DNA of 64,000 bases from contig JAQWPM010000012.1 in assembly GCA_029245345.1 (NCBI GenBank), positions 496,001-560,000 on the forward strand, given 5' to 3'. Numbering within the stretch: the stretch's first letter is position 1; the number at the start of each line of letters is the position of its first letter. A model generated the notes under the pieces. The model had not been told where the DNA came from. It ran no database searches and worked only from the letters and a program-made list of their open reading frames with translations. Shown in pieces: positions 12,008 through 37,602 of this stretch. The position numbers and the translations under genes are program-made. Origin of the DNA: Longimicrobiales bacterium (lineage in GTDB: Bacteria > Gemmatimonadota > Gemmatimonadetes > Longimicrobiales > Gaopeijiaceae).

Positions 12008-12154
12008 TTACGTCAGTAGCGATAAGGAGATTCACCTAACAAAACTCAGCGAGAACCCGCCTACACGTGTCGATAGATGGCAGCAGGAACCTTCCCTTCC
12101 AAGGGACCGTACGAAAGAAACCCGCCGCCGGACCTTCCAGGAAATAAGCTGCAT

Positions 12155-13036
12155 ATGAGGCTTCCCACCCAAGCCAGCTCCGCGCTGGCCGTTGTAGCGG
12201 TGTCGCTATTGAGCGGCGCCTGCACATACGAGGGAGAGGAACGCACAGCAGAGATCACCCTGGGGTCATCCTATATGGCCCAACAGGCGCCGCAGCAATC
12301 ACCCACGGCCGCTCGGCCCAACGGCGCCTACGACGGTCGCCAGCCGCGAATGGTCGAGGGTGAGCTCCCAGGCAAATACCCGTTCTACTGGACCCGGGCG
12401 ATCTACTCCGGCTACCGAGGCGGGCGCGGCTGGAGGCAGTCCTGGGCCACGGACTATCCCAAGGGTGATCAGCAATTCCTCGTCGTGCTGAAACGACTGG
12501 TCCGTTTGAATGCCTATGACTGGGACAACGCGGTCCGCCTGGACGACCCGCAGCTGCGTCGTTTCCCGGTGCTCTATGCGGTCGAGGTGGGCGGCATGGA
12601 TATGACGAACGCCGAAGTCGAAGGCCTTCGCGGGTACCTCGACGCAGGGGGTTTCCTGATCGTCGATGATTTCTGGGGCTCTCGCGAGTGGGACATCTTC
12701 GAGTACAACATCCGTAGGGTTTATCCCGATCGGCCGATCATCGATATCGGGATCGAACATCCGTTGTACTCGGCGTACTACCAGATCGACGAGGTCATGC
12801 AGGTTCCAGCCCGGGGTCGTGGCATCCGCGGCCGTCCCACGGAAGAGTGCTACGGCTGTCGCGCCGCGGTCCGGGGCATGATGGACGATGACGGCCGTCT
12901 GAGCGTGATCATCAACTTCAACACAGACCTCGGAGACGCCTGGGAGTGGGCAGAGGACCCGTACTATCCACTCAAGTATTCGACGTACGCCTATGAGATA
13001 GGTGCGAACATGATCGTCTACGCCATGAGCCACTGA
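12155..13036 (+). CDS. DUF4159 protein, probable lipoprotein
   Basis: 293 residues from ATG 12155, chosen because GGA lies upstream and a secretion signal begins there (MRLPTQASSALAVVAVSLLS, GAC). The Cys may be lipidated, though the lipobox is imperfect. The DUF4159 domain covers about residues 60-293 (FYWTRAIYSGYRGGRGW, YLDAGGFLIVDDFWGS, NMIVYAMSH). The domain is thought to have a glutamine-amidotransferase-like fold without known activity. Unlike its paralogue at 19024 it carries a CYGC motif near residue 230. It is the first gene of a nine-gene co-directional locus; a VWA protein gene follows after 47 bases. Confidence 0.85.
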   Translation: MRLPTQASSALAVVAVSLLSGACTYEGEERTAEITLGSSYMAQQAPQQSPTAARPNGAYDGRQPRMVEGELPGKYPFYWTRAIYSGYRGGRGWRQSWATDYPKGDQQFLVVLKRLVRLNAYDWDNAVRLDDPQLRRFPVLYAVEVGGMDMTNAEVEGLRGYLDAGGFLIVDDFWGSREWDIFEYNIRRVYPDRPIIDIGIEHPLYSAYYQIDEVMQVPARGRGIRGRPTEECYGCRAAVRGMMDDDGRLSVIINFNTDLGDAWEWAEDPYYPLKYSTYAYEIGANMIVYAMSH

Positions 13037-13083
13037 GGAGCCGAACGAATGAGACCTGAGATCGGCGCCCGAGGAGTCCAGGC

Positions 13084-15369
13084 ATGAGCAGGATTTTCGA
13101 GTTCCTGTTCAAGTACCGCCCGCTCGTCTTCGAGCAGGGAGAATTCGCTTTTGGTGCCCCGGGCTCTGTTCGCTTCTGGCTTATGGTCGGGGCAGTCGTA
13201 GGCGCAGGTGCTGTTGCGAGCTATACGCTCGCGCGCGGGAAGAGCAGCGTCATGGATCGCGGCATCATGGCCACCCTCCGCGTGATGCTCCTCGCCGTGC
13301 TCGTCTTCGCGCTCCTGCAGCCGGCCCTGATCCTGTCCACGATCGTGCCGCAACAGAACTTCTTGGGCGTGCTGATTGACGACTCGCGCAGCATGGGCCT
13401 GGAAGACGCCAACGGCGCCACACGAGCCGATTTCGTGACGCAAGCGTTCACGCCAGGTGAGAGCGAGCTTCTCGACGAGCTCTCCGAGCGATTCGTTCTT
13501 CGCTTCTTCCGATTCTCTGACGTCGCAGGTCGAATCGACGGCCCTGGAGAACTGACGTACGACGGCACCCACACCGACCTGGCCGGCGCGCTAGATGCCG
13601 CCCGCCAAGAGTTGGCCGGAGTACCACTGTCGGGCCTCGTGATGGTGTCGGACGGAGCGGACAACGAAAACGAACCACTCACTGAAGCGCTCGTTCCGCT
13701 GCAGGCTGCAGGAGTGCCGGTGTTCACCGTCGGGCTGGGCGAGGACGCCATCACCCCCGACATCGAGCTGGGCAGGGTCGAAATGCCTCGCGCGGTCCTC
13801 GAAGGATCGTCCCTCCTCGTGGACGTGGTCATCACACAGAGAGGCTTCGGGCGGACCAGCGTACCGATCATCGTGGAAGACGAACTACGCATTCTCGCTG
13901 AGGAAACGGTCGACCTCGGAGCAGACGGCGAACCCGTAGTCGCGCGCATCAGCTTCGAACTCGATCGTGCGGGGCCCCGAAAGGTCCGCTTCAGGATCCC
14001 GACTCAACCCGGTGAGCGCGTCGAAGAGAACAACGCTCGTGACGTTCAGATCGAAGTGCGCGGCGAACGGGAGAAGATCCTCTATTTCGAGGGTGAACCC
14101 CGCTTCGAGCTCAAGTTCATCCGAAGAGCCGTAGACGACGACGAGAATGTTCAGGTTGTCACACTACAGCGCACTGCCGAAGCCAAATTCCTAAGGCTGG
14201 ACGTGGACGACGGGACCGAACTCGAGTTCGGATTCCCAGCGACTCGCGAGGAATTGTACCGCTACCGCGCGCTGATCTTGGGGAGCGTGGAGGCGTCCTT
14301 CTTCTCGCACGATCAACTCCAGATGATCGCAGACTTCGTCTCCGAACGGGGCGGCGGCCTGCTCATGCTTGGCGGCGGCTCAGCCTTCGCGGAAGGTGGA
14401 TGGCAAGGGACCCCCGTCGAGGAGGTCATGCCCATCATCATGCAGGAGTCCACGGGCGGACCGGAGAACTTCTTCGCAGAAGTGAAGGTCACACCTACAC
14501 TGGCAGGACTGGCGCACACCGCGGTCCAGCTCAATGAAGAAGGTCCAGGCGTAGCAGCGCGGTGGGATTCACTTCCTCCCGTGACCACCGTGAACCCGAT
14601 CTCCGAGCTCCGCCCCGGAGCGACATCCCTGCTCCTCGGCTCGAGTGATGCGTTGCCCGTCGATCAGATCGTTATGGCCTTCCAGCGCTACGGTCGCGGA
14701 AAATCCATCGCTCTGACCATTCAGGACTCTTGGCTTTGGCAGATGCACGCTGACGTCCGGTTGGAAGACCAGAGTCACGAATCGTTCTGGCAGCAGGTCA
14801 CACGCTGGCTGGTGGACGGAGTGCCGGAGGCCGTGAGCGTGGTCACGGATCAAGAGCAGGTCGAGCCAGGTGAAAGTGTCCGGCTCACCGCATCGGTGGG
14901 CGACTCCACCTTCATCGAGGTCAACGACGCTTCCGTGACCGCCAAGATTACGAGTCCTTCTGGGTCGGTAGAAGAGGTTCCGGTCGGCTGGACCGTGGAC
15001 CGTGACGGGCAGTACGAAGTCCAGTTCCGCCCAGTCGAGGATGGCGAGTACGAAGTGGAAGTCACGGCGATGCGCGGTGAGGAGGTCCTCGGCACCGACG
15101 TCACGTACCTCCACACGGCTCCCAGTAACGAAGAGTTCTTCGGGGCGCGCCGCCACGAGCAGACGCTCCAGCGCATCGCGGACGACACCGGGGGGCAGTA
15201 CTACACCCCTGACAACATCGAGAATCTCCCTGAAGACATCACAGTCACGGGTGCCGGGGTCACGTTGGTCGAAGAGATGGATCTGTGGGACATGCCAATC
15301 CTCTTCTTCCTCATGCTCAGCCTCATGGGTGCAGAATGGGCGTTCCGGCGCATGCGGGGACTGGTATGA
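13084..15369 (+). CDS. Large VWA membrane protein with glutamine-amidotransferase-like domain
   Basis: A 761-residue membrane protein. Two transmembrane segments occur at about 31-50 and 60-85 and another at the C-terminus (MPILFFLMLSLMGAEWAF). A von Willebrand A domain starts near residue 95 with an intact MIDAS, D-x-S-x-S in LIDDSRSMG. An Ig-like region follows. At about 330-560 there is a class-I-amidotransferase-like region (ILYFEGEPRFELKFIRRAV, FVSERGGGLLMLGGGSAF), then another beta domain. The protein is probably anchored at both ends, with the VWA domain on the cytoplasmic or periplasmic face. Its stop overlaps the next start (ATGA). Such proteins pair with MoxR ATPases and DUF4159 proteins; their biochemical role is unknown. 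Confidence 0.82.
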   Translation: MSRIFEFLFKYRPLVFEQGEFAFGAPGSVRFWLMVGAVVGAGAVASYTLARGKSSVMDRGIMATLRVMLLAVLVFALLQPALILSTIVPQQNFLGVLIDDSRSMGLEDANGATRADFVTQAFTPGESELLDELSERFVLRFFRFSDVAGRIDGPGELTYDGTHTDLAGALDAARQELAGVPLSGLVMVSDGADNENEPLTEALVPLQAAGVPVFTVGLGEDAITPDIELGRVEMPRAVLEGSSLLVDVVITQRGFGRTSVPIIVEDELRILAEETVDLGADGEPVVARISFELDRAGPRKVRFRIPTQPGERVEENNARDVQIEVRGEREKILYFEGEPRFELKFIRRAVDDDENVQVVTLQRTAEAKFLRLDVDDGTELEFGFPATREELYRYRALILGSVEASFFSHDQLQMIADFVSERGGGLLMLGGGSAFAEGGWQGTPVEEVMPIIMQESTGGPENFFAEVKVTPTLAGLAHTAVQLNEEGPGVAARWDSLPPVTTVNPISELRPGATSLLLGSSDALPVDQIVMAFQRYGRGKSIALTIQDSWLWQMHADVRLEDQSHESFWQQVTRWLVDGVPEAVSVVTDQEQVEPGESVRLTASVGDSTFIEVNDASVTAKITSPSGSVEEVPVGWTVDRDGQYEVQFRPVEDGEYEVEVTAMRGEEVLGTDVTYLHTAPSNEEFFGARRHEQTLQRIADDTGGQYYTPDNIENLPEDITVTGAGVTLVEEMDLWDMPILFFLMLSLMGAEWAFRRMRGLV

Positions 15370-16388
15370 TCTCCCGTCGCGCACTCCGCATCTGTGTCGC
15401 GATCCTCGCAGTGGCCTCAACCTTCTCGACACCTCGCGAGGCTGATGCTCAAGGTCGAACCCACGCCGTGATCGTTGTGGGACTGGGCGGAACCCAGGAA
15501 TACCGGACGCGTTTTCACACTCAAGCGTTGGCGCTCAAGGCTGCGCTCACTGTTCGACACGGAATACCCGCTGAAAACGTGACCTACCTGGGCGAGAAGC
15601 CCGCGGAAGCTCCCGACGTCATAGCAGCCAAGTCGACACGCGCGAACGTGCTCCAGACACTCGGCGAGATCTCGCAGCGAGCGCAGCCGATGGACCGCCT
15701 TCTCGTGATTCTGATCGGCCACGGAACGTCGGCCCGGAACGAGGCTCAATTCAATCTCTCAGGCCCCGACCTCACTCCAACGGACTTCCAGACCGGGCTG
15801 ATCGCGTTCCCGACGCAGACGCTGGCGCTCGTGCACACAGGGAGCGCCAGCGGCGGGTTCGTCGCACCGCTCTCTGGTCCGAACCGAATCATCATCACGG
15901 CCACGAAAACCGAGCGAGAACGGAACGCCACAGAATTTCCGCAGTTCTTCGTGGAAGCCATGACGACGGACGAGGCGGACCTGGACAAGGACGAGCGCAC
16001 CTCTCTGCTCGAGGCCTTCCTCTACGCACGCGCCGAAACGGAACGGTACTACCTAGAGGGAAACGAACTCCTCCCCGAGCACGCCGTCCTCGACGACAAT
16101 GGGGACGGCGAAGGCACGCATGAAGCGGGGCTCTCAGGCCCGGACGGCCCGTTGGCTGCGACGTTCCAGTTGGGCGGAGTCTCAGGCACAGCAAGTCAGG
16201 TGCCCGACGATCCCGCACTCGCGCAGCTCTACGAAGAGCGCACCGAGATCCAAGAACGCATGGACGAGTTACGCGAGGTACGTGACGCGATGGACGAAGA
16301 GATGTACCTCGGGCAGCTCGAGGAACTGCTCGTAGAGTTGGCGCTCAAGAACCGCGAGATCCGAGCACTGGAAGGAGGGGGCGCTTGA
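15366..16388 (+). CDS. Secreted caspase/C13-fold protein lacking the catalytic cysteine
   Basis: 340 residues from ATG 15366 (ATGA overlap with the previous stop); the first 28 residues are a signal peptide ending ADAQG. The fold is that of legumain-type (C13) or caspase-like peptidases: HAVIVVGLGGTQEY, then LLVILIGHGTS with the catalytic His near residue 118. The following block, where relatives read 'D.CySGgF', reads VHTGSASGGF. The cysteine position is occupied by serine, near residue 159. A C-terminal coiled segment (about 285-335) is rich in Glu and Arg. It is probably a non-proteolytic scaffold or an altered-nucleophile enzyme. It sits between a VWA protein and a TPR peptidase with overlapping ends. 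Confidence 0.72.
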   Translation: MISRRALRICVAILAVASTFSTPREADAQGRTHAVIVVGLGGTQEYRTRFHTQALALKAALTVRHGIPAENVTYLGEKPAEAPDVIAAKSTRANVLQTLGEISQRAQPMDRLLVILIGHGTSARNEAQFNLSGPDLTPTDFQTGLIAFPTQTLALVHTGSASGGFVAPLSGPNRIIITATKTERERNATEFPQFFVEAMTTDEADLDKDERTSLLEAFLYARAETERYYLEGNELLPEHAVLDDNGDGEGTHEAGLSGPDGPLAATFQLGGVSGTASQVPDDPALAQLYEERTEIQERMDELREVRDAMDEEMYLGQLEELLVELALKNREIRALEGGGA

Positions 16389-19027
16389 AGACGGCGCGAC
16401 TCCTACCTGTGCTCGCACTGCTATGCGCGGTTCCCGTCTCGGGCCAAGACACTCAGCCGGCTAACTCGTCCGGCAGTGATGCCCGCACGGCCATGCGCAG
16501 CGGAGACTACGAAGGTGCTGAGGACACGTTCCGGCAGCTCCTGCGCGAGGACGCAACACTCTGGCAGGCTCGAGCAGATTTCGTGGAGCTCCTCACGTGG
16601 ACAGGGAGGTACGAACTCGCGGAAGAACTCGCTCGTGCCGCACCGGACGCGCTGCCCATGGCCAACAGCCTAGGGGCAGTACTCGTCCTACGCGGAGACT
16701 TGGACGGAGCAGAGGCGGCCTTCCGTCACGCAGTCGACGACGGAGCGCCAGACGCGCTCACCGCAGAGGTGAATCTGGCTGAGCTTCTCTTCGGCCGTGG
16801 CCAGATCAATGACGCCATGCAGCGCTTCGACCGCTTCATCGACATCTACAACAACGCGGACGGGCGTCTGCGTGCGACTGATCTCGTCGCAGTGGGTCGG
16901 GCCGTTCACTACTTGGGCCGAAATGAGTCCGCCATGTTCGGCGATGCCCTGCGCGCCTTCGACGAAGCCACGAGCCTGGACGCGAGCTGGTCGGAGCCGA
17001 GTGTCCGGGCTGGCGACCTCTTCCTGGAGAAGTACTCGAGCCCCGAGGCCAAAACCGAGTACGAAAAGGCACTCGCACGAAATCCGCGTCATCCAGGTGC
17101 TCTCCTGGGCATGGCGAAGGCACTTTCGTTCGACAACGCGCCAGGTGCCGGCAGCGTCCTCACCCAAATCCTCGAGATCAATCCGAATCACGTCGAGGCA
17201 CGCTCGATCATCGCCGCCCAACACCTGACTCGGGAAGGTATCGCAGAGGCGAAGGAAGAGGCCGAGACCGCACTGGCTGTGAACCCGCAGTCGCTCATCG
17301 CGCTCACCACACTCGCCGCGTCCCAGTTGGTGGCGGGAGAGTTGGCGGCGTTCCAGGCCACGCGCAGCCGAGCGCTCGATATCAACCCGCGCTACGCCGC
17401 CTTGGATACCGAGCTTGCCGAAATCTCCGTGCAAACCCGCCGGTACGCCCAAGCCGTAGAGCGTGCCCAAGCCGCTGTCGCCCTAGACGATGCCGCATGG
17501 GAAGCCTGGGGCCTGCTCGGAATGAACCAGCTCAGGGTAGGAGATATAGAAGAAGGCCACGCCAACATCGAAAAGGCATTCGCGGGCGATCCTTTCAACC
17601 CTTGGTTCAAAAACACCCTGGATCTGCTCGACACCTTCGAGCGCTTTGAAGTGCACCCGACCGAACACTTCGAACTCTTCTTACACGGGACTGAAGCTGA
17701 CCTGCTGGCCACCTACCTCGCCCCGATCGCTGAAGAGGCCTACGACTCCCTAGCGAAGCGCTACGGAGTGGAGCCGCCACTCCCTGTGAGAGCCGAGTTC
17801 TTCCCGAGTCACGCAGATTTTTCAGTGCGCACTTTGGGCGAGGCTGGGCTTGGCGCCCTGGGCGTCAGCTTTGGCTCGGTGCTCGTAATGGATTCACCGG
17901 CTGCACGCGCCGTCGGCGACTACAACTGGGCCTCAGTCTTTTGGCACGAACTGTCCCACACGTTCCACCTGGGCATGACGGACAACCGTGTGCCTCGTTG
18001 GTTCTCAGAAGGGCTTGCCGTCCATGAGCAACGGCAGGCGCGCAGCGGCTGGGGACATCAGCCCAACATCCCGTTTCTGCAGGCGCTGCGGGACGGCGAG
18101 CTGAAAAAGGTCTCTGAATTGAATGACGGCTTCATGCGGCCGGACTTTCCGCAGCAGGTCATCTTCTCTTACTACCAAGCGTCCTTGGTCTTTCAGGTCC
18201 TCGAAGAGCAGTACGGTTTCCAAGCCATCCGGGACATGCTTGAGGGCTACAAGAACGGCGCCACCACCCCAGATCTGTTCCAATCGGTCCTCGGCTGCTC
18301 GATCGAAGACTTCGACAACGAATTCGAGGATTACCTACAGGAGCGGTTCCGCAGCCCGCTCCAGGGCCTCGTCGAACTCGGAGAGACTCCCGATCAGTCC
18401 GCCGGCGTCGAAGCCTTACAGACCTTCGTTCGAACCCACCCGGGCGACCTACTCGGACGGATCCGCTTAGGGGTAACGCTGGTCACTGAAGAACGGTGGG
18501 ACGAAGCCGAGTCTCACTTGGACGAGGCGCTCCGCATCTTCCCTGACTATTCAGGTCCGGACAGTCCGCTCTGGTGGCTCGCCCAGGTGTATCGCTCGCG
18601 TGGAGACATTGAAGGCGCAGCGGCTTCACTCGACCGACTCAATTCCCTCTCCGAGTCGAACTACAACGCTCTGGTCCTGCAAGCGGATCTGCTCGAACAG
18701 CTCGGGCGGCCTGAGGCAGCGGCCGCAGCGCTCGACAAAGCCGTGCTCGTGTGGCCGTATGAAGTCGAAGTGCACGAACGACTGGCCAATCTCCACGACA
18801 ACGTCGGTGACTACACCGGCGCGGTCAGAGAGCGCGCGGCCGTGGTCGCGCTGAATCCGACGGATATGGCCGAAGCGTACTACCTGCTCGCCCTGGCGCA
18901 TCAGCGTGCATCCGACACGCCATCTGCCCGCCGAGCGGTTCTCCAGGCGCTCGATATCGCACCCAACTACGACGCAGCGCTCGAACTCCTCCTACTGCTG
19001 CGCTCGGGCAATGGGGCTACATCATGA
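16385..19027 (+). CDS. TPR-repeat protein with gluzincin (peptidase-MA-like) domain, exported
   Basis: 880 residues starting at TTG 16385, whose codon overlaps the previous TGA. A signal peptide covers about 1-20 (ending VSGQD). Residues 30-425 are TPR repeats. A zinc-peptidase domain lies at about 430-650, with HELSH near residue 521 and the third-ligand glutamate helix in WFSEGLAVHEQ. More TPRs follow at about 660-875. The zinc-binding residues are complete, so activity is plausible. The substrate is unknown; the TPR arms suggest a protein or assembly partner in the periplasm. Its stop overlaps the start of the second DUF4159 gene (ATGA). Confidence 0.82.
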   Translation: MKTARLLPVLALLCAVPVSGQDTQPANSSGSDARTAMRSGDYEGAEDTFRQLLREDATLWQARADFVELLTWTGRYELAEELARAAPDALPMANSLGAVLVLRGDLDGAEAAFRHAVDDGAPDALTAEVNLAELLFGRGQINDAMQRFDRFIDIYNNADGRLRATDLVAVGRAVHYLGRNESAMFGDALRAFDEATSLDASWSEPSVRAGDLFLEKYSSPEAKTEYEKALARNPRHPGALLGMAKALSFDNAPGAGSVLTQILEINPNHVEARSIIAAQHLTREGIAEAKEEAETALAVNPQSLIALTTLAASQLVAGELAAFQATRSRALDINPRYAALDTELAEISVQTRRYAQAVERAQAAVALDDAAWEAWGLLGMNQLRVGDIEEGHANIEKAFAGDPFNPWFKNTLDLLDTFERFEVHPTEHFELFLHGTEADLLATYLAPIAEEAYDSLAKRYGVEPPLPVRAEFFPSHADFSVRTLGEAGLGALGVSFGSVLVMDSPAARAVGDYNWASVFWHELSHTFHLGMTDNRVPRWFSEGLAVHEQRQARSGWGHQPNIPFLQALRDGELKKVSELNDGFMRPDFPQQVIFSYYQASLVFQVLEEQYGFQAIRDMLEGYKNGATTPDLFQSVLGCSIEDFDNEFEDYLQERFRSPLQGLVELGETPDQSAGVEALQTFVRTHPGDLLGRIRLGVTLVTEERWDEAESHLDEALRIFPDYSGPDSPLWWLAQVYRSRGDIEGAAASLDRLNSLSESNYNALVLQADLLEQLGRPEAAAAALDKAVLVWPYEVEVHERLANLHDNVGDYTGAVRERAAVVALNPTDMAEAYYLLALAHQRASDTPSARRAVLQALDIAPNYDAALELLLLLRSGNGATS

Positions 19028-19842
19028 TTGTAAGAAGCCTCGCTGCTCTGCTCGTCGTGGGATCGGCCGCGACGTACTACGTGTCGGCTCGTCCGGGCCC
19101 TGAACTGGCGGACCTTCCAACCGCGGCTTCGCCTGCCCCGCAGTCGTATCAGGACATCAACGCACCGTACGACGCCAAGTACCACTTCGTACGCATACGC
19201 TACGACGTGGGCAACAGCGGCCTCGCGGGCTTTGGGCGACGGAGAAGAGGCGGCCGCGAACCCGCATGGGCGCACGACTACCCCCGGGCCGAAAGGAATT
19301 TTTTGCAGATCCTCAACGAGACCACGTTCGTCGATTCCCAGACCGAGGGTTCGAACGTCATCACGCTGGATGACCCTGAGTTCTTCAAGTATCCCATCGC
19401 TTATATCGTCGAGGTCGGATCATGGAATCCGACTGACGAGGAAATCACCAACCTGGGGGCCTACCTCAACAAGGGTGGATTCCTGATCGTCGACGACACC
19501 CGTAACGAGCGCGGCTACGAACTCCAGAACTTCGCGTTCCACATGGATCGCGCACTCCCTGGGCTCCTCCTCGTGTCTCTCGATCACGATCACGAAATCT
19601 TCGATTCCTTTTTTAGAATCGATCCGCTCAAGGTCATTCCGCCCTACGGGCCCAGAAACGTCCAGTACTACGCAATCTTCGAGGACAACGACCCCACGAA
19701 GCGCATGATGGTGTTGTTGAACCTCAACAACGACATCGCTGAGTACTGGGAATACAGCGGTCAGGGCTACGCCCCGATCGACTTGGAAAACGAAGCGTAC
19801 AAGCTAGGTGTCAACTATATCGTGTACGCCCTCACACACTGA
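19024..19842 (+). CDS. Second DUF4159 protein, membrane-anchored or exported
   Basis: 272 residues. The N-terminus (MIVRSLAALLVVGSAATYYV) is an uncleaved anchor or signal peptide. The DUF4159 domain fills residues 50-272 (VRIRYDVGNSG, AWAHDYPRAERNF, YLNKGGFLIVDDTRN, LGVNYIVYALTH). It is clearly paralogous to the protein at 12155, sharing the FLIVDD and N.IVYA.(S/T)H signatures, but lacks the CxxC motif. ATGA overlap with the TPR peptidase gene. 44 bases separate it from the MoxR gene. Confidence 0.87.
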   Translation: MIVRSLAALLVVGSAATYYVSARPGPELADLPTAASPAPQSYQDINAPYDAKYHFVRIRYDVGNSGLAGFGRRRRGGREPAWAHDYPRAERNFLQILNETTFVDSQTEGSNVITLDDPEFFKYPIAYIVEVGSWNPTDEEITNLGAYLNKGGFLIVDDTRNERGYELQNFAFHMDRALPGLLLVSLDHDHEIFDSFFRIDPLKVIPPYGPRNVQYYAIFEDNDPTKRMMVLLNLNNDIAEYWEYSGQGYAPIDLENEAYKLGVNYIVYALTH

Positions 19843-19886
19843 TCCACAAAAGCGCCTAGGCGCCAATACTGATACGGAGAGGACCT

Positions 19887-20927
19887 TTGACTGACGACGC
19901 GATCGGAACCGTCGAACTCGACAATGCCGACGACGTAGCACTCGCGGACAAGATGAAGCATGGCCGCAAGCAGATAATCAGCGAGCTTCGCAAGCTGATC
20001 GTCGGGCAGGAACAGGTCATCGAGGAGGTCCTCCTCACACTCTTCGTAGGCGGCAACTCGTTGCTCATGGGTGTGCCGGGCCTCGCGAAGACGCTTCTCA
20101 TCCACACCATCGCCCAGGTCGTGGATCTGAACTTCTCTCGTATTCAGTTCACCCCGGACCTGATGCCGTCGGACATCACTGGAACGGACATCATTCAGGA
20201 AGACTCCGAGACGGGTCGTCGTGAGATGGTGTTTGCCCCCGGCCCGGTGTTCTCCAACATCGTGCTCGCGGATGAAATCAACCGGACTCCGCCAAAGACC
20301 CAGGCAGCGCTGCTCGAGGCTATGCAGGAGCACCGGGTCACAGTCCAGGGCCACACGTACACGCTCAAGGAGCCGTTCTACGTCTTTGCGACGCAGAACC
20401 CCATCGAACTCGAAGGAACGTATCCGCTCCCTGAGGCACAACTCGATCGCTTCATGTTCGAGATCGTCATAGAGCACCTTTCGGAAGAAGAAGAGATGGA
20501 GGTCGTTCGCAGCACGACGGGCATCTTGAAGCCGGAGTTCAGCCACGCGGTTACCGGGCCAGACCTTCTCGCCTTCCAAGAACTCGTTCGCCGCGTTCCG
20601 GTTTCGGAGTCCGTGCTCCGTTACGCCGTGAACCTGGTTCGGGCCAGCCGTCCCAGCGCGAACGGAGACTCACCAGACTTCGTGAAAAAGTGGATCGCCT
20701 ACGGCGCGTCCGTCCGAGCCGCTCAGTACTTGGTGCTCGGCTCGAAAGCGAAGGCGCTCACTCAAGGCCGTTACCACGTGTCGTTCGACGACATCAAGTC
20801 ACTGGCACACCCGGTCCTGAGGCACCGTATTCTCACGAACTTCCACGCGGAGTCCGAGGGTCGCACAACAGGCGAGATCATCGACCGGTTGCTCGAGCAC
20901 GTCCCTGTCCCCACTTCAGGGATGTAG
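19887..20927 (+). CDS. MoxR-family AAA+ ATPase
   Basis: 346 residues from TTG 19887, with GGAGAGGA just upstream. Walker A is GVPGLAKT near residue 62; Walker B with sensor context is IVLADEINRTPPKTQAALLEAMQEH near 126, split here as IVLADEINR and PPKTQAALLEAMQEH. QNPIELEGTYPLPEAQLDRF is the family's sensor-1 and arginine-finger block. MoxR proteins act as chaperone-like ATPases that work with VWA-domain partners, and here DUF58 and two VWA genes surround it. Gene order MoxR-DUF58-VWA is the conserved core seen in many bacteria. Confidence 0.93.
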   Translation: MTDDAIGTVELDNADDVALADKMKHGRKQIISELRKLIVGQEQVIEEVLLTLFVGGNSLLMGVPGLAKTLLIHTIAQVVDLNFSRIQFTPDLMPSDITGTDIIQEDSETGRREMVFAPGPVFSNIVLADEINRTPPKTQAALLEAMQEHRVTVQGHTYTLKEPFYVFATQNPIELEGTYPLPEAQLDRFMFEIVIEHLSEEEEMEVVRSTTGILKPEFSHAVTGPDLLAFQELVRRVPVSESVLRYAVNLVRASRPSANGDSPDFVKKWIAYGASVRAAQYLVLGSKAKALTQGRYHVSFDDIKSLAHPVLRHRILTNFHAESEGRTTGEIIDRLLEHVPVPTSGM

Positions 20928-20936
20928 GCGACCCCT

Positions 20937-21860
20937 TTGCCCGCACACACGAAAGCTCCGGCCGCCTCAGGCGGCGCGCAGTTCCTCGATCCGGCTGTAC
21001 TCGCTCGGATCAACAACTTGGAACTGCTCGCGCGCACAGTAGTCGACGGATTCCTCACGGGCCTGCACCGCTCCCCACACCTCGGGTTCAGCACGGACTT
21101 TGCGGAGCACCGACCGTACATGCCGGGGGACGACATCCGGCGTATCGACTGGAGACTCTTCGCTCGCTCCGATCGGCATTACATCAAGCTGTTCGAGGCC
21201 CAAACGAACGCGAACTTCGCCGTGCTGCTCGACGTGTCGAGTTCTATGAAGTACGGGAGCCATTCGGTCACGAAGCTCGACTACTCTCGCTATCTCGCGG
21301 CATGCCTGTCGTTCTTTTCAAACCGACAGCGCGACCGAGTGGGGTTGGTCACATTCGACGAGGACATCGTCGACTACGTGCCACCGTCGATGAAACATTT
21401 CGACACGATTCTTCACTCGCTAGACCGGGCACAGCCGGCGCGCAAAGGCTCACTTAATGCGCCCTTCTTGAAGGTCGCCGAGTTGTTACGGCGGAAGGGC
21501 ATCTTGGTCGTCATTTCGGACTTATATGAAGAGCCGGATGACATTCTGGAGGCGATCGGTCCTCTGCGTGCCCGCGGCCACGACGTGATCGTGTTCCACG
21601 TCTTGGATCCCGCCGAGCTGACCTTTCCGTTCGAGGATCCATCAGCGTTCCAAGACATAGAGACCGGCGCGCAGATACCCGTCGTTCCAGCACGCCTGAA
21701 GGAAGACTACCTGCGACTGATGGGTGCCCACCTGACTACAGTCGAGAAACGCTTCACCGACAACCGCATCGACTATCAGTTGCTCGACACTTCCCAGCCG
21801 TTGGACATCGCGTTGTTCAAATACCTGCTGGCCCGCGAACGGTTGAGTAAGAAACGATGA
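20937..21860 (+). CDS. DUF58 domain protein (VWA-like, MoxR partner)
   Basis: 307 residues from TTG 20937, nine bases after the MoxR stop. The DUF58 hallmark is present (PGDDIRRIDWRLFARSD, YIKLFEAQ), followed by a VWA fold with MIDAS motif D-x-S-x-S (LLDVSSSMKYG) near residue 99. No membrane segment is evident, so it is probably cytoplasmic. It is presumed to be the adaptor or substrate-delivery partner of MoxR. Its stop overlaps the BatA-like gene (ATGA). Confidence 0.92.
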   Translation: MPAHTKAPAASGGAQFLDPAVLARINNLELLARTVVDGFLTGLHRSPHLGFSTDFAEHRPYMPGDDIRRIDWRLFARSDRHYIKLFEAQTNANFAVLLDVSSSMKYGSHSVTKLDYSRYLAACLSFFSNRQRDRVGLVTFDEDIVDYVPPSMKHFDTILHSLDRAQPARKGSLNAPFLKVAELLRRKGILVVISDLYEEPDDILEAIGPLRARGHDVIVFHVLDPAELTFPFEDPSAFQDIETGAQIPVVPARLKEDYLRLMGAHLTTVEKRFTDNRIDYQLLDTSQPLDIALFKYLLARERLSKKR

Positions 21861-23980
21861 GTCTCGGTCTTCTTGTTCCTCTCTTCCTGCTCGGTTTGGC
21901 CGGGGTCGTGGTCCCGATCGTGGTGCACCTCACGCGTCGGCAGCGCCGAAACGTGGTCGAGTTCCCATCACTCATGTTCCTGGAGAAGATCCCGTTCCAG
22001 GAGCAGAGACGGCGACGCATTCAGCACTGGTTCCTGCTGTCGATGCGCGCGCTCGCCCTCGCTCTGGTTGCATTTGCGTTCACCCGACCGTTCTTCGAAC
22101 AGGGCTCGCTTGCAATCGGAGGTGCGAACGGACCACGCGAGGTCGTGGTCCTGCTCGACCAGTCCTACAGCATGCAGGTCGGCGACCAATTCGAGCGAGC
22201 GCTTGAAGAAGCCAGTCAGGTCTTCGACGACCTCGGGCCGCTGGATCGGGCTTCGCTGGTCACCTTCGGTCAGGGCGCCCGAGTCATCGCTCGGTCGACC
22301 TCGGATCGGCAACGTCTGCAAGGCGCATTGGACACCGTCCAAGTCGGAGCCTCGGTCACTCGTTACGGTCCGGCTTTGAAGGTCGCCCAGACGATCATCG
22401 AAGAATCGGAGCTCCCCAGTGGCGAAGTGATCCTGCTCACCGATTTTCAACGCACAGGGTGGACCGGTGACGAGGGCGTGAACCTGCCACCGGGCTCCGT
22501 GGTCACTACAGTGCCCCTCGGCCCAGTGCCGGTCCTCGACAACATCGAGGTCACCGACATCGCATTGGGCAAGGAGGCAATCCAAGGTCGGGAGCGTGTC
22601 ACACCCACGGCGCGCCTGGCTCGCCGTGGTGGGGACACTCCAAGAGAGGTTAGGGTCGCGCTGGAGCTCGACGGGCAGGAGATCCAAACCAGAGCCGTCA
22701 CGATTCAACCGAACGGGGCCGCAACGGTGACGTTCCAGCCGTTCACGCTCTCAGGCCCACACACTCGCGGCTCAGTAAGCGTGCCGACGGACAGACTGCC
22801 GGCCGATGATGCACGCCATTTCGTCGTCTCGCCGGGTACGGCGATGTCGATGCTCGTAATCGAAGGCGGGTCGACAAGCGCCGACGCGAGCCTCTATCTC
22901 CGCCGAGCCTTGGAGATCTCTGAGGACGGGCGATTCGATATCCGCTTCCGGCGAGCGAACGGTGTGCGGCCGCAGGATCTGGACGGTATCGACGGCGTCA
23001 TCCTAAATGACGCGAGCATCGACGGGGGCTCGGCGGAACGACTCCGCACCTTCGTCGAGAACGGTGGTGGTGTCCTTCTCGCTCTAGGACAGTCAGGAGG
23101 ATGGCCAGCATCCGCGGCGGACCTCCTTCCAGGCGTGATCCAAAATGCAGAGGACCGTCAGCAGGGACGCGGCGGCCGGCTCGGTTTCTTGGAGTACGGC
23201 CATCCGATTTTCGAAGCCTTCTCGGGCCCCCGCAGTGGCGACTTCACGGGTGCGCGTTTCTTCCGGGCTCGTGGCTTCACGCCGAGTGACTCCGCTACCG
23301 TGCTCGCGCGCTTCGACGACGGTTCGATCGCACTCGCGGAGCTCAAGCACGGGCAGGGAACGATTCTCGTTTGGACGTCGACGCTGGATTCGTTCTGGAA
23401 CGATCTCGCGCTTCAGCCCGTCTACCTGCCCTTCGTGCACCGGCTGTCCGAGTACATCACCGGACGCTCAGAGGCCCTCCCCTGGTTCAACGTGGGCCAA
23501 GTCGTGGACCTCGCGGACCCGGACGCACTCGAGGCCGCTGGCTTGGTCTCGGCAGAGGCCGCGGGATTCGTGAACGGAGTGGAGCAAGTGGCCCTGACAC
23601 CGTCAGGCTCGTCCATCGCGCTTCCGGCCGAACTCGGTCCGCGCTACTTGTCACTGGATGAGGCGGGATTCTACACCGTGCGCCCGCCGGGATCTGACCC
23701 GGACCGGCCGTTCGTGATTGCAGTAAATGTCGAATTGGAAGAGTCGGGCCTCGCCCGACTGGACCCCGAAGAACTTGTGGCGCAGATCACCTCCCCGAGC
23801 GTCGGGCCCCAGGCGGGTCCAGAGTTCGCGGACGGCACAGATCTCCGCCGCGAGGACCAGGAACGCAGACAATCATGGTGGCGCTGGCTCCTTATTGCGG
23901 CATTCGCACTCTTCGTTACGGAAACACTCATCTCCAATTGGGTGTCTCGGAAAGGGAGTGTGGGGCTCGCGGCGGGTTAG
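21857..23980 (+). CDS. BatA-like membrane protein with VWA domain
   Basis: 707 residues. The N-terminus has the aerotolerance-regulator (BatA) pattern: one membrane helix (MSLGLLVPLFLLGLAGVVVP), then VHLTRRQRRNVVEFPSLMFL and a second helix (MRALALALVAFAFTRPF). A VWA domain from residue 95 has the MIDAS D-x-S-x-S in LLDQSYSMQ. Ig-like and amidotransferase-like beta regions follow (GGVLLALGQSGGWPA). A C-terminal helix (WWRWLLIAAFALFVTETLI) closes the chain. The topology matches the VWA protein at 13084, so the locus holds two large membrane VWA proteins flanking its ATPase. Confidence 0.87.
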   Translation: MSLGLLVPLFLLGLAGVVVPIVVHLTRRQRRNVVEFPSLMFLEKIPFQEQRRRRIQHWFLLSMRALALALVAFAFTRPFFEQGSLAIGGANGPREVVVLLDQSYSMQVGDQFERALEEASQVFDDLGPLDRASLVTFGQGARVIARSTSDRQRLQGALDTVQVGASVTRYGPALKVAQTIIEESELPSGEVILLTDFQRTGWTGDEGVNLPPGSVVTTVPLGPVPVLDNIEVTDIALGKEAIQGRERVTPTARLARRGGDTPREVRVALELDGQEIQTRAVTIQPNGAATVTFQPFTLSGPHTRGSVSVPTDRLPADDARHFVVSPGTAMSMLVIEGGSTSADASLYLRRALEISEDGRFDIRFRRANGVRPQDLDGIDGVILNDASIDGGSAERLRTFVENGGGVLLALGQSGGWPASAADLLPGVIQNAEDRQQGRGGRLGFLEYGHPIFEAFSGPRSGDFTGARFFRARGFTPSDSATVLARFDDGSIALAELKHGQGTILVWTSTLDSFWNDLALQPVYLPFVHRLSEYITGRSEALPWFNVGQVVDLADPDALEAAGLVSAEAAGFVNGVEQVALTPSGSSIALPAELGPRYLSLDEAGFYTVRPPGSDPDRPFVIAVNVELEESGLARLDPEELVAQITSPSVGPQAGPEFADGTDLRREDQERRQSWWRWLLIAAFALFVTETLISNWVSRKGSVGLAAG

Positions 23981-24053
23981 AAGGCGGAGGGTGGGTGTGT
24001 AGTGACGGGGCAACAAGCTCCGTACTTTGGGTAGACGGATGAAGGAGAGGGAC

Positions 24054-27000
24054 ATGCAGAATTCAGACAGACGAATGGCACAGAGCAGGATCTTGGATGT
24101 TGTTCGCAGCGTCCGCTGGCGCTGGCGCGCCCGGATATTTCTGAGCGGCCTCACGTGGGTGGGAGCCATCACTGGTGCGGTACTCTTCCTCTCTGCAGTC
24201 GGGCTGGAGCAGATGCGCTTCTCAGCGGGTGCCGTGGTTTGGCTCCGATCGCTGACCTGGGGAACCTTCGCACTTACATCATTCTGGTTCGTTCTCCGTC
24301 CACTGCTCCGCAGCCCCAGCGACCAACAAGTCGCCCTCTATTTGGAAGAGCACGAACCATCTCTCGAGCACGCTGTAGTGACAGCCCTCGAGGCAGGAGA
24401 CAGCGCGTCTCCTACCCTCGGACATGAACTCGTAGCGAGCGCGCTCGAACGCGCGAAGAAGGTCCACTACGGTCGTCGCGTCGAGCAGTCTGCCTTATAC
24501 CGCTTCGGCGGCGCTCTCACGGCAGTCGCCGTAACGGCGGTCCTGTTGACGCTGGCGGGGCCCTCGCACCTCAAGAACGGCCTCTCGGCACTCTTGCTGC
24601 CCATGACCGACGCCGCCGCGGTGAACCCATATGCCGTGGCCGTGTTTCCTGGCGACACGACGATCGCGCGCGGCACCGATCAGGTTGTCACAGCCGCCCT
24701 CAGTGGATTCGAAGCAGGTGATGTCTCGATCTTCACGCGCACCGGACCGGATCAGAGCTTCCAGCGCTTGAGTATGCTCTCGGATGACGCGGGAGGATTC
24801 GAAGCGTTGTTGCTGGGTGTGGACGACCGGACCGAGTACTTCGTGGAATCCACCGGCATTCGATCGCCCACGTATACAATCGACGTGGCGGACCTTCCGT
24901 ACGTCGACCAGTTGGACCTGACCTACTACTTCCCGAGCTACACCGGCCTACCGCCTCGGACTCGAGAAGACGGCGGTGACGTTGCAGCGCTTCCTGGGAC
25001 CGTAGTCGAGCTGAAGATCCACCCCACAATGATCACGTCGGGTGGTCAGCTTCTTTTGGACGGGGACCCTGCCGAGGAACTCACAACGGCGGAAGATGGC
25101 TCACTCGTCGCCCGCTTCACGGTTTCCGAGCAAGGCTTCTACTCGATCAAACTCGCACGTGACAACGGCGAACTCGTGCCGGCGTCTCCCGGGTACACCA
25201 TCGACGTCCTCACCGACAACCAGCCGTCGATTCAGTTCACGACTCCAGGCCGGGACGTCCCCGCCTCCCCAATCGAGGAGGTCTATCTCGAAGTCCGAGC
25301 AACGGACGACTATGGGATCGGAGATGTGCGACTGGTCTATTCCGTGAATGGTGGAGCCGAGGACACAACAAGCGTCTTCAGAAACAGCGGAACCCCGCTT
25401 CCCGAAGTCTCGACCGGGTACACCCTCTTCTTGGAAGAGTGGGAGCTCGAGCCCGGCGACCTGATCTCGTACTACGCGGTCGTTCGCGACAACCGCGGCA
25501 GTGCGAAGTCCATCGAGAGCGACATGTTCTTCCTGAATGTGCGCCCCTTCGACATCGCATTCCGCCAGGGTGAAGAACAAGGCGGCGGTGGCGGTGGCGG
25601 CGGTGGCGGCGAACCTGAAGCCGCGCTCTCCGAGCTTCAGCGCCAAATCATCTCCGCCACCTTCAATCTGATCCGCCAGAGAGACAGCTACGGCGAAAAT
25701 GAGTTCAGCGAGAACGTGGTCTCGGTGTCGCTCGCGCAGGGTCGGCTGATGGAGCAAGTGGGGACACTGCTGGAGCGCATGCAGAACAGGGGCCTGACCG
25801 AAACCGATCCGGGCTTCCGAGATGTCTCCGCGATCCTACCCTTGGCCGTCGAAGCCATGACGCTGGCGCAGACCGATCTCGACACCGAGGAGCTCCGTGA
25901 GGCGCTGCCGGACGAGCAAACCGCACTGCGCTACCTACAGCAGGCGGAAGAGACGTACGAGCGCTACGTGCAACAGCAGCAACAGGGCGGCGGTGGCGGT
26001 GGTGGCGGAAGCCAGGCCGCGGCCGAAGACCTCGCTGATCTGTTCGAACTGGAACTCGACAAGCTCAAGAACCAGTACGAAACCGTTCGCCGAGGAGAAC
26101 AGCAGCAGTCGGATGATCAGGTCGACGCACTCATGGAAGAGCTCCAGGAACTCGCGCGCCGACAGGAACAAGAAGCTGAACGCCAACGCAGGCGGGCTCA
26201 GCAGGGCCAGCAGGGCGGCTCCGCTTCTGCTGCAGAGTCTCAGCGTGATCTCGCCGACCAGACTGAAGAGGCAGCGCGGCAACTGCAGCGACTGGCCCGA
26301 GAAAACAACGACCCGCAGCTGGAGGAAACAGCTCGTCAACTGGACCAAGCGGCCGAGTCGATGCGTCAGGCCGCGTCGCAGGGTGGTGCGTCTGGTACAA
26401 GCGAAGCGAACTCGGCTCTTCGTCGCTTGGAGGACGCGAGGCGAGAGCTGGAGGACGCCCGTTCCGAACGCGCCCGCCGTGACGCAGAAGACGCGATCCA
26501 ACGCGTCGACGAGCTACAGCAGCAGCAGCGGGAGGTGCAGCGCCGCGTCCGGGAACTGCCGACGAGCGGCGAGGAGCGCACTGCGACGATCAACCAACTG
26601 CGCGAGCGAAAAGACCAGATGACCCAAGCGGTCCAGGAACTCGAACGCGAGCTGGATCAGTCCGCCGCAGGGAGCCGAGCCGACAACCCCGAAGCGGCGC
26701 GAGCGCTTCAGGACGCGGCAGAGCAGATCCGAGAATCGAAGCTCAAGGAGAAATTGCAATACTCCCGCGGTACCATCGAACAGTGGGACCCGCAGTCAGC
26801 CGTGACCCTCGAGTTGAACATCGAAGCCGACCTTCAGGCACTCCGAGACCGCCTCGAACAGGCTGCGAGCATTTCCAGCCAGAACGAAACCAACCCCCTT
26901 GAAGAGGCCCTCGACGCGGCCCGCGAGCTGGTTCGCGGCATGGAGTCGATGGATCGGAGGCTTCAAGAGACTCAGCAGAGCCAACAGGGCCAGGAAGGCC

Positions 27001-27530
27001 AACAAGGACAAGGCGGCGAAGGCCAACAAGGACAGGGCGGCGAAGGCCAAGGACAGGAAGGTGGACAGCAGCAGGGCGGTCAGGGCGGAGGCAGAGCGAT
27101 GAATCCAGCCGGCGGCCAGAATCGTGGTGGGGGCGCAGTTCGTTCGAACCCTCGGCCGCTCACGGATGAGGAGATTCGCCAGTTCCGCAACGAAGCCGGG
27201 CAGAGATCGGACCAGGCCCGCGACCTGCAAAACCAGCTCAGCCAAGCCGGGTATAGCGCGGAGGATCTCCAAGCCGTCGTTGCTGCGATGAACCGGCTGG
27301 AACGAGAGGGCACATACTCGGACCCCGCGCAGCTCCGGATGCTGCAACAGGAGATCCTAGACATGCTGAAACGGCTCGAGTTCGGCCTCCGCCGTGATGT
27401 GGAGGGCGATGCGGATCGAGGTGCGACGCTTTCCGGGTCAGACGAAGTGCCCGACGGATACCGGAAGCTCGTGGAGGAGTACTACCGCGCGCTTGCTCGG
27501 GGACGTTCGGGCGGCGGCGGCAACAACTAG
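24054..27530 (+). CDS. DUF4175-family membrane protein with long coiled coil
   Basis: About 1158 residues. ATG 24054 is chosen because AAGGAG lies six to seven bases upstream; an in-frame TTG at 24027 is less likely. Three hydrophobic segments (about 28-50, 65-85, 155-175) anchor it, followed by beta domains to about residue 500. From there on it is low-complexity: a Gly-rich linker (QGGGGGGGGGGEPEAA type, near 25580), long Gln/Glu/Arg coiled coils (26040-26960) and a GQGGEGQQGQ-rich segment (27000-27110). The C-terminal helical end contains the 'DEEIRQFRNEAGQR' block typical of the family. Function unknown; it appears as the last gene of the MoxR/VWA locus. Confidence 0.85.
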   Translation: MQNSDRRMAQSRILDVVRSVRWRWRARIFLSGLTWVGAITGAVLFLSAVGLEQMRFSAGAVVWLRSLTWGTFALTSFWFVLRPLLRSPSDQQVALYLEEHEPSLEHAVVTALEAGDSASPTLGHELVASALERAKKVHYGRRVEQSALYRFGGALTAVAVTAVLLTLAGPSHLKNGLSALLLPMTDAAAVNPYAVAVFPGDTTIARGTDQVVTAALSGFEAGDVSIFTRTGPDQSFQRLSMLSDDAGGFEALLLGVDDRTEYFVESTGIRSPTYTIDVADLPYVDQLDLTYYFPSYTGLPPRTREDGGDVAALPGTVVELKIHPTMITSGGQLLLDGDPAEELTTAEDGSLVARFTVSEQGFYSIKLARDNGELVPASPGYTIDVLTDNQPSIQFTTPGRDVPASPIEEVYLEVRATDDYGIGDVRLVYSVNGGAEDTTSVFRNSGTPLPEVSTGYTLFLEEWELEPGDLISYYAVVRDNRGSAKSIESDMFFLNVRPFDIAFRQGEEQGGGGGGGGGGEPEAALSELQRQIISATFNLIRQRDSYGENEFSENVVSVSLAQGRLMEQVGTLLERMQNRGLTETDPGFRDVSAILPLAVEAMTLAQTDLDTEELREALPDEQTALRYLQQAEETYERYVQQQQQGGGGGGGGSQAAAEDLADLFELELDKLKNQYETVRRGEQQQSDDQVDALMEELQELARRQEQEAERQRRRAQQGQQGGSASAAESQRDLADQTEEAARQLQRLARENNDPQLEETARQLDQAAESMRQAASQGGASGTSEANSALRRLEDARRELEDARSERARRDAEDAIQRVDELQQQQREVQRRVRELPTSGEERTATINQLRERKDQMTQAVQELERELDQSAAGSRADNPEAARALQDAAEQIRESKLKEKLQYSRGTIEQWDPQSAVTLELNIEADLQALRDRLEQAASISSQNETNPLEEALDAARELVRGMESMDRRLQETQQSQQGQEGQQGQGGEGQQGQGGEGQGQEGGQQQGGQGGGRAMNPAGGQNRGGGAVRSNPRPLTDEEIRQFRNEAGQRSDQARDLQNQLSQAGYSAEDLQAVVAAMNRLEREGTYSDPAQLRMLQQEILDMLKRLEFGLRRDVEGDADRGATLSGSDEVPDGYRKLVEEYYRALARGRSGGGGNN

Positions 27531-27565
27531 GGAACGCATACGGCGTCCAGATCAGGGATGTAACA

Positions 27566-27594
27566 AAGCCCGGGGGGTCCAACTCCTCGGGCTT
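27566..27594 (+). terminator. Terminator hairpin of the nine-gene locus
   Basis: A 13-bp stem (27566-27578 with 27582-27594), fully paired if G-T pairs are allowed, with a three-base loop, 36 bases after the DUF4175 stop. It overlaps the stop codon of the convergent receiver gene. Only a weak pyrimidine tract follows. Confidence 0.65.
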
Positions 27595-28000
27595 ATCCTT
27601 CTCCCTGCTCGATCACCTCGCGGGCCTTCAACAGAAGACCGTCCACAGTAAAGGGCTTGGGCATGAAGTTGACCTCCGAGAACCGCAAACCCTGGAGGAT
27701 CACCTCGTCCTCCGTGTACGCAGACATGTACAGGATGGGGATCTCGGGGTAACGCCCCTCGAAAATTTCTCCGAGCTCCCGCCCGCTCATTTCCGGCATC
27801 ATAAGATCGGACAGCAGGAGCGATACCTGTCCCTGAGCGGCCTCAGCGAGTTCCAGAGCCTCGTGGCCTCCGCTCGCGGAGAGCACCGAATACCCGCCGC
27901 GCGAGAGCACTTTCGCCGCAACACTCAGAACGGCCTCATCGTCATCGACGACCAACACCGTTTGGGTCTCCCGGTCTGCACTACTAGTCAGATCAACCAT
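27593..28000 (-). CDS. Single-domain response regulator (CheY-like receiver)
   Basis: About 135 residues from ATG 28000. It is a complete receiver: acidic pair in TVLVVDDDEAVL, phospho-acceptor Asp in LLLSDLMMPEMSG, the switch Ser in LYMSAYTED and the conserved Lys in FMPKPFT. No output domain follows. The frame stays open upstream to 28201, but those residues are AT-rich and not receiver-like, so a short form is preferred. Sequence style resembles receivers at the end of hybrid histidine kinases, so a remnant of such a gene is possible. No cognate kinase is visible. Confidence 0.7.
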   Translation of the reverse strand: MVDLTSSADRETQTVLVVDDDEAVLSVAAKVLSRGGYSVLSASGGHEALELAEAAQGQVSLLLSDLMMPEMSGRELGEIFEGRYPEIPILYMSAYTEDEVILQGLRFSEVNFMPKPFTVDGLLLKAREVIEQGEG

Positions 28001-34200: not shown

Positions 34201-34286
34201 CAAGAGCCGACGCGGAGCGCGTGTGCGCAGAGATGGATACCGTCTTAACGCACGACGTCGTCTCGACGTTTGGCGACCTCACCTAA
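31233..34286 (+). CDS. Triple fusion: APH-like kinase, M23-fold domain, class III aminotransferase/phospholyase
   Basis: 1017 residues in one frame. Residues 1-350 are an aminoglycoside-phosphotransferase-like kinase with catalytic loop [13 protein letters not shown] and metal-binding IDLGD. Residues about 425-545 are an M23 (LytM) domain with zinc ligands HLGID near 442 and HLHF near 531. Residues about 570-1015 are a class III PLP enzyme with [14 protein letters not shown] and Schiff-base Lys in [13 protein letters not shown] near 850. The PLP part resembles ethanolamine-phosphate/5-phosphohydroxylysine phospholyases, whose substrate is made by an APH-like kinase. So kinase plus lyase on one chain makes sense: phosphorylate an amino alcohol, then eliminate phosphate and ammonia. 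The role of the M23 domain is unknown; no signal peptide is seen. No clear Shine-Dalgarno precedes ATG 31233. Confidence 0.88.
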
Positions 34287-37492: not shown

Positions 37493-37602
37493 GCGAGGGT
37501 TCTCCACCATCTGGGGGGACGGTCAGAATGCCGCCCTGTCGAACGAGGGTCAACAACAAGGACACCCGAGTGCGCCCGTGCGCTGTTGCACGAGCGAGCG
37601 AG

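Follow-up and report, generated by a model that had tools for sequence, protein, structure and literature searches.

The 64,000-nucleotide stretch analysed here (the window) comes from the 3.79-Mb assembly of a Longimicrobiales bacterium of the phylum Gemmatimonadota (GCA_029245345.1, contig JAQWPM010000012.1, positions 496,001 to 560,000). Between positions 12155 and 27530 it holds nine genes, from a first DUF4159 gene (D1) to a DUF4175 gene (D4175), delimited by Pfam profile search and by the starts of the open reading frames. An initial annotation made from the letters alone had described nine co-directional genes, and all nine indeed lie on the + strand. The genes, and a hairpin that follows them, are:

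D1, 12155..13036, + strand: exported DUF4159 protein with a lipobox-like LSGAC at its N terminus (PF13709, E 7e-40, 137 bits, cut-off 25.9)
VWA1, 13084..15369, + strand: membrane-anchored VWA protein with a GATase1-like domain and a MIDAS motif DxSxS (PF07090, E 2e-6; weak VWA match under cut-off)
CASP, 15366..16388, + strand: exported pseudo-peptidase of legumain/metacaspase fold (Cys to Ser) with an EF-hand-like loop (no Pfam match; ATGA overlap with VWA1)
GLUZ, 16385..19027, + strand: exported TPR protein with a Peptidase_MA_2 (gluzincin) domain, HExxH...E (PF13485 and TPR)
D2, 19024..19842, + strand: second DUF4159 protein, with an N-terminal hydrophobic anchor or signal (PF13709, E 2e-42, 145 bits, cut-off 25.9)
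MoxR, 19887..20927, + strand: MoxR AAA+ ATPase (AAA_3, E 1e-61)
DUF58, 20937..21860, + strand: soluble VWA partner of MoxR (PF01882, E 6e-48; no hydrophobic segment)
BatA, 21857..23980, + strand: BatA-type membrane VWA protein (PF07584, E 2e-17, and VWA_2; three hydrophobic segments)
D4175, 24027..27530, + strand: DUF4175 membrane protein (PF13779, E 2e-11; two hydrophobic segments)
Hairpin, 27566..27594, no strand assigned: strong hairpin past the last gene and putative terminator (27555-27605 folds at -26.9 kcal/mol)

The Pfam run used longer starts for D1 (12077) and CASP (15285); for D1 the start at 12077 was set aside and 12155 was picked from the lipobox, while the start of D4175 may lie anywhere from 24027 to 24075. 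TGA stops seen inside CASP in two genomes were discarded, as they fall within an artefactual N-terminal extension that overlaps VWA1 and vanish with starts like 15366. By eye, the C-terminal region of D4175 is long, Q/G-rich and coiled-coil-like. Six of the nine proteins had no NCBIfam model match at E 0.001.

Four junctions, not the five of the initial annotation, are 4-nt overlaps (VWA1/CASP, CASP/GLUZ, GLUZ/D2 and DUF58/BatA), the MoxR/DUF58 junction being a 9-nt gap. At orthologous junctions a 4-nt overlap is found in 123/136 adjacent pairs for VWA1/CASP, 71/89 for CASP/GLUZ, 68/83 for GLUZ/D2 and only 31/97 for DUF58/BatA, in counts that include some genomes twice under different ids; because they recur in this way, the overlaps go beyond chance. 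The strong hairpin said to close the locus at 27566 does fold strongly; as a terminator it is more doubtful, with a poor T tract and no place among the calls of a terminator scan, and it lies between convergent frames because a - strand frame of 202 aa, which by eye resembles a response regulator, ends at 27593. From 10.9 to 28.9 kb no sigma-70-like promoter was found against 2.7 expected in shuffles, for a consensus that says little for this phylum.

The set is broadly distributed in the phylum, mostly in single copy and in synteny. Among 200 sampled phylum genomes of at least 90% completeness, CASP was found in 104, VWA1 in 104 and a MoxR orthologue in 106, the three surveys being taken as covering the same genomes (their handles agree) and all genome counts being uncorrected for phylogeny. 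For CASP, 106 genomes had matched, and G202 and G101, whose sole match was weak, were dropped together with all secondary matches; the strict E-value cut-offs for VWA1 and MoxR can miss diverged orthologues. All three proteins occur together in 99 of the 109 genomes that have any of them, and CASP stands without a MoxR orthologue in 3/104. In 99/101 genomes with both, VWA1 and CASP share a strand and lie no more than 3.5 kb apart. In 87/90 genomes that carry CASP and MoxR on one contig, MoxR lies downstream of CASP in the same orientation and at most 7 kb away; the three remaining have it 8.4, 9.2 and 25.9 kb away, again on the same strand, and in 11 further genomes the two are on different contigs. 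CASP presence and absence both occur within several families of the phylum. CASP is present in 23/39 close genomes (own genome counted), and the stretches read around it show the same block as far as the contig reaches, with undetected singles (D2 in L048, D4175 in L038, D1 in L039).

Gene order was counted over 82 of 123 distinct CASP loci, those with at least 3.3 kb upstream and at least 8.3 kb downstream (41 short-flank loci excluded). All nine families stand in order in 37/82 loci, that is 36 plus L140, where the opposite strand carries an additional DUF4159 gene. Of the 45 remaining loci, 32 are short of only one or two families. Eight families without D1 are seen at 13/82 loci, D2 is absent at 4/82 and D1 and D2 together at 1/82. 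D4175, often cut by the flank in relatives, is not seen at 4/82, where the flank is often too short, with the stretch of L038 being one that should have shown it. GLUZ is absent at 9/82 loci, all labelled Acidobacteriota, one of which (L125) is also without visible D4175. Only D1-VWA1-CASP is in view at 4/82 (L086, L124, L128, L133), and 6/82 show the D4175-VWA1-CASP ends of a permuted cassette described below. The rest are L135, without GLUZ and with its DUF4159 genes moved to the end, L095 and L100, where the order is cut earlier, and L148, with a GLUZ-CASP arrangement. In the cultured Gemmatirosa kalamazoonensis, VWA1 lies on a plasmid of 1.1 Mb. Eight of the nine families are visible in L172, where D1 is not in view; its CASP is in two overlapping pieces and may be frameshifted or misread. 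Taken with the co-occurrence, the order agrees with the one conserved set of the initial annotation, and the nine-gene locus is very likely a conserved, inherited functional unit.

The most unusual member is CASP. Its AlphaFold2 (AF2) model, built from 64 sequences, has a pLDDT of 91, and the top PDB matches in Foldseek are legumains (E 1e-8). In VIA-align a legumain leads with Z 22.3 (rmsd 2.6, 206 aligned; other legumain rows 20-21), followed by metacaspase-4 (Z 20.8), PIGK of the GPI transamidase (Z 19.0) and caspase-7 (Z 16.3), a ranking that holds among the families in that table only. The sequence profile puts metacaspase-4 (E 2e-4) ahead of legumain (E 0.03), whereas structure slightly favours legumain. 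The modelled fold is thus of the legumain/metacaspase type, legumain slightly nearest by structure, and belongs with the legumain-like folds of clan CD by a small margin over C14-type folds. The initial annotation had spoken of a caspase-fold protein without its cysteine: the loss stands, while the fold is of the legumain/metacaspase kind rather than that of a caspase.

HMMER aligns one legumain Cys, which we take to be the catalytic one, with S160 of CASP. In a 125-row alignment, which includes repeats of genomes fetched twice, His119 is kept in 123/123 rows with a letter, position 160 is S in 97, T in 18, P in 3 and A, D, E and N in one each, with Cys in 0/122, and S162 is S in 121/122. Seven rows from the permuted type B cassette have S (5), E (1) and G (1) at position 160, the E row being also among the 122. 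CASP therefore lacks the His-Cys dyad of peptidase C13 by its Cys and keeps the His. A 12-residue EF-hand-like loop is nearly invariant over 79 rows (D205 79, S213 78, E216 79; D207 as 67 D and 12 N; D209 as 72 D and 7 N), and CASP probably binds calcium. Judged from these alignments CASP is a dead peptidase, with the Cys gone in every row and the fold, the His and the probable calcium loop retained. It shares fold and His with legumain, PIGK (peptidase C13) and the metacaspases, and differs from them in its missing nucleophile Cys, EF-hand-like loop, bacterial export and MoxR gene context.

GLUZ, in contrast to CASP on this point, apparently is a live zinc protease: the HExxH and the Glu are kept in 42/42 aligned sequences and in 93/94 long frames of a wider set, nine of type B included, the exception (L046) being a frame that ends at a contig edge. 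The TPR zinc peptidase proposed earlier is borne out by this and by the Pfam matches to Peptidase_MA_2 and TPR. MoxR has its Walker A in 49/49 sequences and the acidic pair DE of Walker B in 49/49, and the MIDAS DxSxS is complete in BatA (45/45) and in DUF58 (47/47). In VWA1 (72 rows, one gapped) D99 is kept in 71, S101 in 70 (one T) and S103 in 71. With an intact-Walker MoxR adjoined by DUF58 (PF01882) and BatA (PF07584, VWA_2) that keep their MIDAS, the locus is a member of the MoxR-DUF58-BatA systems, and the pairing of MoxR with VWA partners is supported.

BatA, VWA1 and D4175 are predicted to span the membrane and MoxR-DUF58 to be cytoplasmic; the further parts named by the initial annotation as exported come out as predicted exported proteins. 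Hydropathy and positive charge indicate a cytoplasmic 24-54 loop for BatA and a VWA domain on the outer side of the membrane. VWA1 has two N-terminal hydrophobic segments with a positive loop between them, which would put its VWA domain in the periplasm, a weaker reading than that for BatA. In the BatA loop F36, P37, S38 and F41 are invariant (45/45 each; FPSLMF in the window), and this FPS..F motif is a candidate contact for MoxR-DUF58. The lipobox-like motif of D1 is present in 11/28 orthologue models, whose starts are uncertain, and with so few a general nature of D1 as an outer-membrane lipoprotein was not retained. The DUF4159 model (pLDDT 80) has as best PDB match 4i66 (Hoch_4089, an uncharacterised Haliangium protein; E 5e-11) and little else; amidotransferase matches are weak, leaving the amidotransferase fold proposed for DUF4159 unsupported.

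The locus spans two phyla and two ARRANGEMENTS: type A, the order of the window, and a permuted type B. The survey across phyla covers the best 80 of at least 539 relatives. CASP was found in 35/149 Acidobacteriota genomes, and L136, L137, L138, L140 and L141 of that phylum have all nine genes in the window's order. Type A loci of the Vicinamibacterales kind are without GLUZ, and in 5/5 such genomes tested a homologue of GLUZ, 31-35% identical over about 490-800 residues, is found at another site. Reading around the distant GLUZ in four of these five (not G220) and in five further genomes, we found that it opens the type B cassette, GLUZ-DUF4159-MoxR-DUF58-BatA-DUF4175-VWA1-CASP, so that in four GLUZ-less type A genomes the GLUZ homologue accompanies a second MoxR-DUF58-BatA set. 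The cassette is whole in L176 and, across adjoining stretches, in L179+L144, L180+L149, L181+L146, L182+L145 and L183+L142; L175+L143 (G218) has an interruption of ~10 kb between BatA and DUF4175, and L177 and L178 are cut by the contig. Some Acidobacteriota genomes thus carry type B alongside type A. The initial annotation had named, as the pattern that would speak against it, a MoxR/DUF58/VWA core with pseudo-caspase and peptidase scattered elsewhere. The proximity of MoxR to CASP mostly goes against such scattering, which is not wholly void because GLUZ lies elsewhere in the GLUZ-less type A genomes of Acidobacteriota.

A midpoint-rooted tree of 91 MoxR rows, in which some branches are long, groups the 81 type A rows (100/99) and leaves the 9 type B rows outside. 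The type A rows of Acidobacteriota are spread over more than one part of the tree, and for that reason the cassette may have moved between the two phyla at least once. Three metagenome-assembled genomes (L109, L111, L120) labelled Gammaproteobacteria carry the cassette as well; the labels are probably wrong or the bins mixed, because the MoxR of L109 sits at near-zero branch length beside Gemmatimonadota rows L037 and L118. A Planctomyces plasmid match, of which 18 kb were seen, has DUF58-BatA-VWA1-like genes with weak MoxR and DUF4175 pieces and, over those 18 kb, no CASP, GLUZ or DUF4159 profile match. Within Gemmatimonadota, four split genomes break between CASP and GLUZ and keep both halves: G052 (L155/L156, ~26 kb apart), G172 (L165/L160), G205 (L162/L161) and G161 (L164/L163). 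In G088 and G179 several kb are inserted at this junction, which also differs between type A and type B.

The core is not without precedent, because relatives of it have reported phenotypes. Mutants in RL3499-RL3502 (cmdA-D) of Rhizobium leguminosarum are reported to have envelope and morphology defects, and RL3499, a relative of the MoxR-DUF58 type, is reported to influence morphology and the integrity of the membrane (PMC3893208, PMC5700661). The operon, compared there with the Bat/VWA set, encodes a MoxR of the MRP subfamily. A second MoxR-DUF58-BatA-DUF4159 locus in our own genome (C24) looks more like cmdA-D, and its MoxR is 55% identical to that of the window and far apart in the tree. 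A pseudo-legumain, a TPR gluzincin and a second DUF4159 are not known from RL3499-RL3502. Bat operons share MoxR, DUF58, a BatA-type VWA protein and a TPR protein (PMC5700661, PMC11834572), whereas the window set adds the legumain-fold protein, the zinc protease and the DUF4159 and DUF4175 proteins; BatD had no Pfam match among the nine proteins at E 0.05. A further likeness is AdvA of Acinetobacter baumannii, a DUF4175 protein with transmembrane (TM) helices that is reported to be linked to cell division, in a paper that names no MoxR (PMC7481262); its resemblance to D4175, by description only, lies in the DUF4175 domain and the helices. The open-licence literature searched yielded no description of the full nine-gene set, of DUF4159 alone or with MoxR, or of MoxR and legumain together, and the lipocone paper (PMC12419801) has no MoxR. 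The earlier claim that no function is assigned to the full set agrees with these searches, with the qualification that its MoxR-DUF58-BatA core has relatives with phenotypes. The nine-gene set is most likely an enlarged variant of the known MoxR-DUF58-BatA envelope systems.

MoxR proteins are hexameric AAA+ ATPases. As a working model, to which we give a probability of about 0.45, the locus encodes an enlarged MoxR-DUF58-BatA envelope machine that works as a unit. The particular mechanism, an ATPase driving a periplasmic VWA/protease platform, is more tentative. MoxR would act in the cytoplasm with DUF58 as its VWA adaptor, and the pair would work on DUF4175 and on the cytoplasmic loop of BatA, which bears the conserved FPSLMF motif. 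BatA and VWA1 would relay this work over the inner membrane through their periplasmic VWA domains, VWA1 and the probably calcium-binding CASP would form a substrate-holding or gating platform for GLUZ in the periplasm, and the two DUF4159 proteins would provide further scaffold there. By this means some exported envelope protein would be assembled, processed or checked for quality at the expense of ATP. We infer a control of GLUZ by the ATPase through CASP, and it is a bolder and rather doubtful step to see here a distinct class of envelope machine, one in which MoxR, hydrolysing ATP in the cytoplasm, would govern a zinc protease of the periplasm by way of a calcium-binding, dead legumain-fold peptidase.

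Several points weigh against this reading. Not every part can be needed at every copy, because the Vicinamibacterales-type locus is without GLUZ and many loci are without D1, and transcription as one unit is not general, because of the splits between CASP and GLUZ and the ~10 kb interruption in G218. The topology comes from hydropathy by itself, which left the C-terminal segment of VWA1 under threshold; the segments that it picked out in MoxR and GLUZ are unlikely to be membrane helices. That CASP binds calcium and that GLUZ cleaves proteins are predictions from motifs. The literature searched reported no experiment on the nine-gene set, and Bat-type operons have been linked no less to oxidative and heat stress than to the envelope (PMC11834572).

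The CASP/GLUZ junction invites another explanation, in which D1-VWA1-CASP and GLUZ-D2-MoxR-DUF58-BatA-DUF4175 are modules independent of each other that do separate jobs and are neighbours for historical reasons. All four splits, the two insertions of several kb and the difference between type A and type B fall between CASP and GLUZ, and the four loci with only D1-VWA1-CASP in view would fit as well. However, the split genomes read keep both halves, CASP without MoxR is rare (the 3/104 above), and the same families are held in two different arrangements, so that we regard two modules as unlikely. MoxR and VWA proteins are also known as maturation pairs, such as NorQ-NorD, CbbQ-CbbO and CoxD-CoxE. 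A maturation chaperone of this classical type, dedicated to a single enzyme that the exported parts would serve, would be in keeping with the usual pair, and MoxR proteins are described as chaperone-like in the maturation of dedicated complexes (PMC3893208); yet no client enzyme is evident among the nine genes, and the ABC ATPase gene downstream of the locus in the window adjoins it only in L030 and L031 among the relatives read (many stretches end soon after D4175), which makes this rather improbable.

The dead legumain fold beside MoxR also recalls the MoxR-vWA ternary conflict systems, some of which combine MoxR and vWA with caspase-like domains that are often inactive (Kaur et al., 2020, PMC7159879). 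According to that paper ~70% of the caspase domains in the effector position have no catalytic activity, and the MoxR of the window scores 37.4 bits with bpMoxR (cut-off 27). A conflict or defence system of this kind is nevertheless highly improbable here and was set aside: PADLOC matched 0/9 proteins, no VMAP, iSTAND or FtsH third component was seen among the nine (Pfam, E 0.05), the proteins appear to be exported, the MoxR match to AAA_3 (207 bits) far exceeds that to bpMoxR (37 bits), and the distribution in the phylum is broad, mostly single-copy and syntenic. It is very unlikely, too, that CASP is an active hydrolase using Ser or Thr for Cys. A hydroxyl residue in 115/122 rows at column 160 and the invariant His119 would suit such an enzyme; the other 7/122 rows do not, nor do the G and E among the type B rows, and because P, A, D, E, N and G occur there a hydroxyl is not required at this position. 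The active Ser/Thr enzyme was set aside on these non-hydroxyl residues.

Should the envelope machine exist as modelled, it would be a bacterial counterpart in design, descent aside, to the legumain-like subunit inside the GPI transamidase, present in roughly half of the sampled Gemmatimonadota genomes and in part of the Acidobacteriota. Its nine families mostly have little or no assigned function, and their conservation over two phyla, with a permuted second arrangement and the strict loss of one catalytic residue, offers testable parts. It raises the questions of what GLUZ cleaves, whether MoxR controls it, and why a protease fold persists without its nucleophile.

The own genome holds five DUF4159 genes in four loci, the others being L049 (C21), L050 (C24) and L051 (C19), which include the separate MoxR-DUF58-BatA-DUF4159 locus and a DUF4175-like/DUF4159 pair; a plasmid search with a DUF4159 paralogue from this genome gave 1 record, 21% covered. 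Near another DUF4159 gene, L051:12269-15127 encodes a 39% identical paralogue of a Sortilin/VPS10-BNR repeat protein that the window carries at 34385-37510 on the - strand. Upstream of the nine-gene locus a DUF5916 protein is encoded at 8724-10961 on the - strand; of the relatives read, L029 (81%) and L053 (34%) have a homologue close to their locus. Beyond the locus, in addition to the ABC ATPase, a 1017-aa fusion of an APH-type phosphotransferase, peptidase M23 and a class-III aminotransferase is encoded at 31233-34286 on the + strand.

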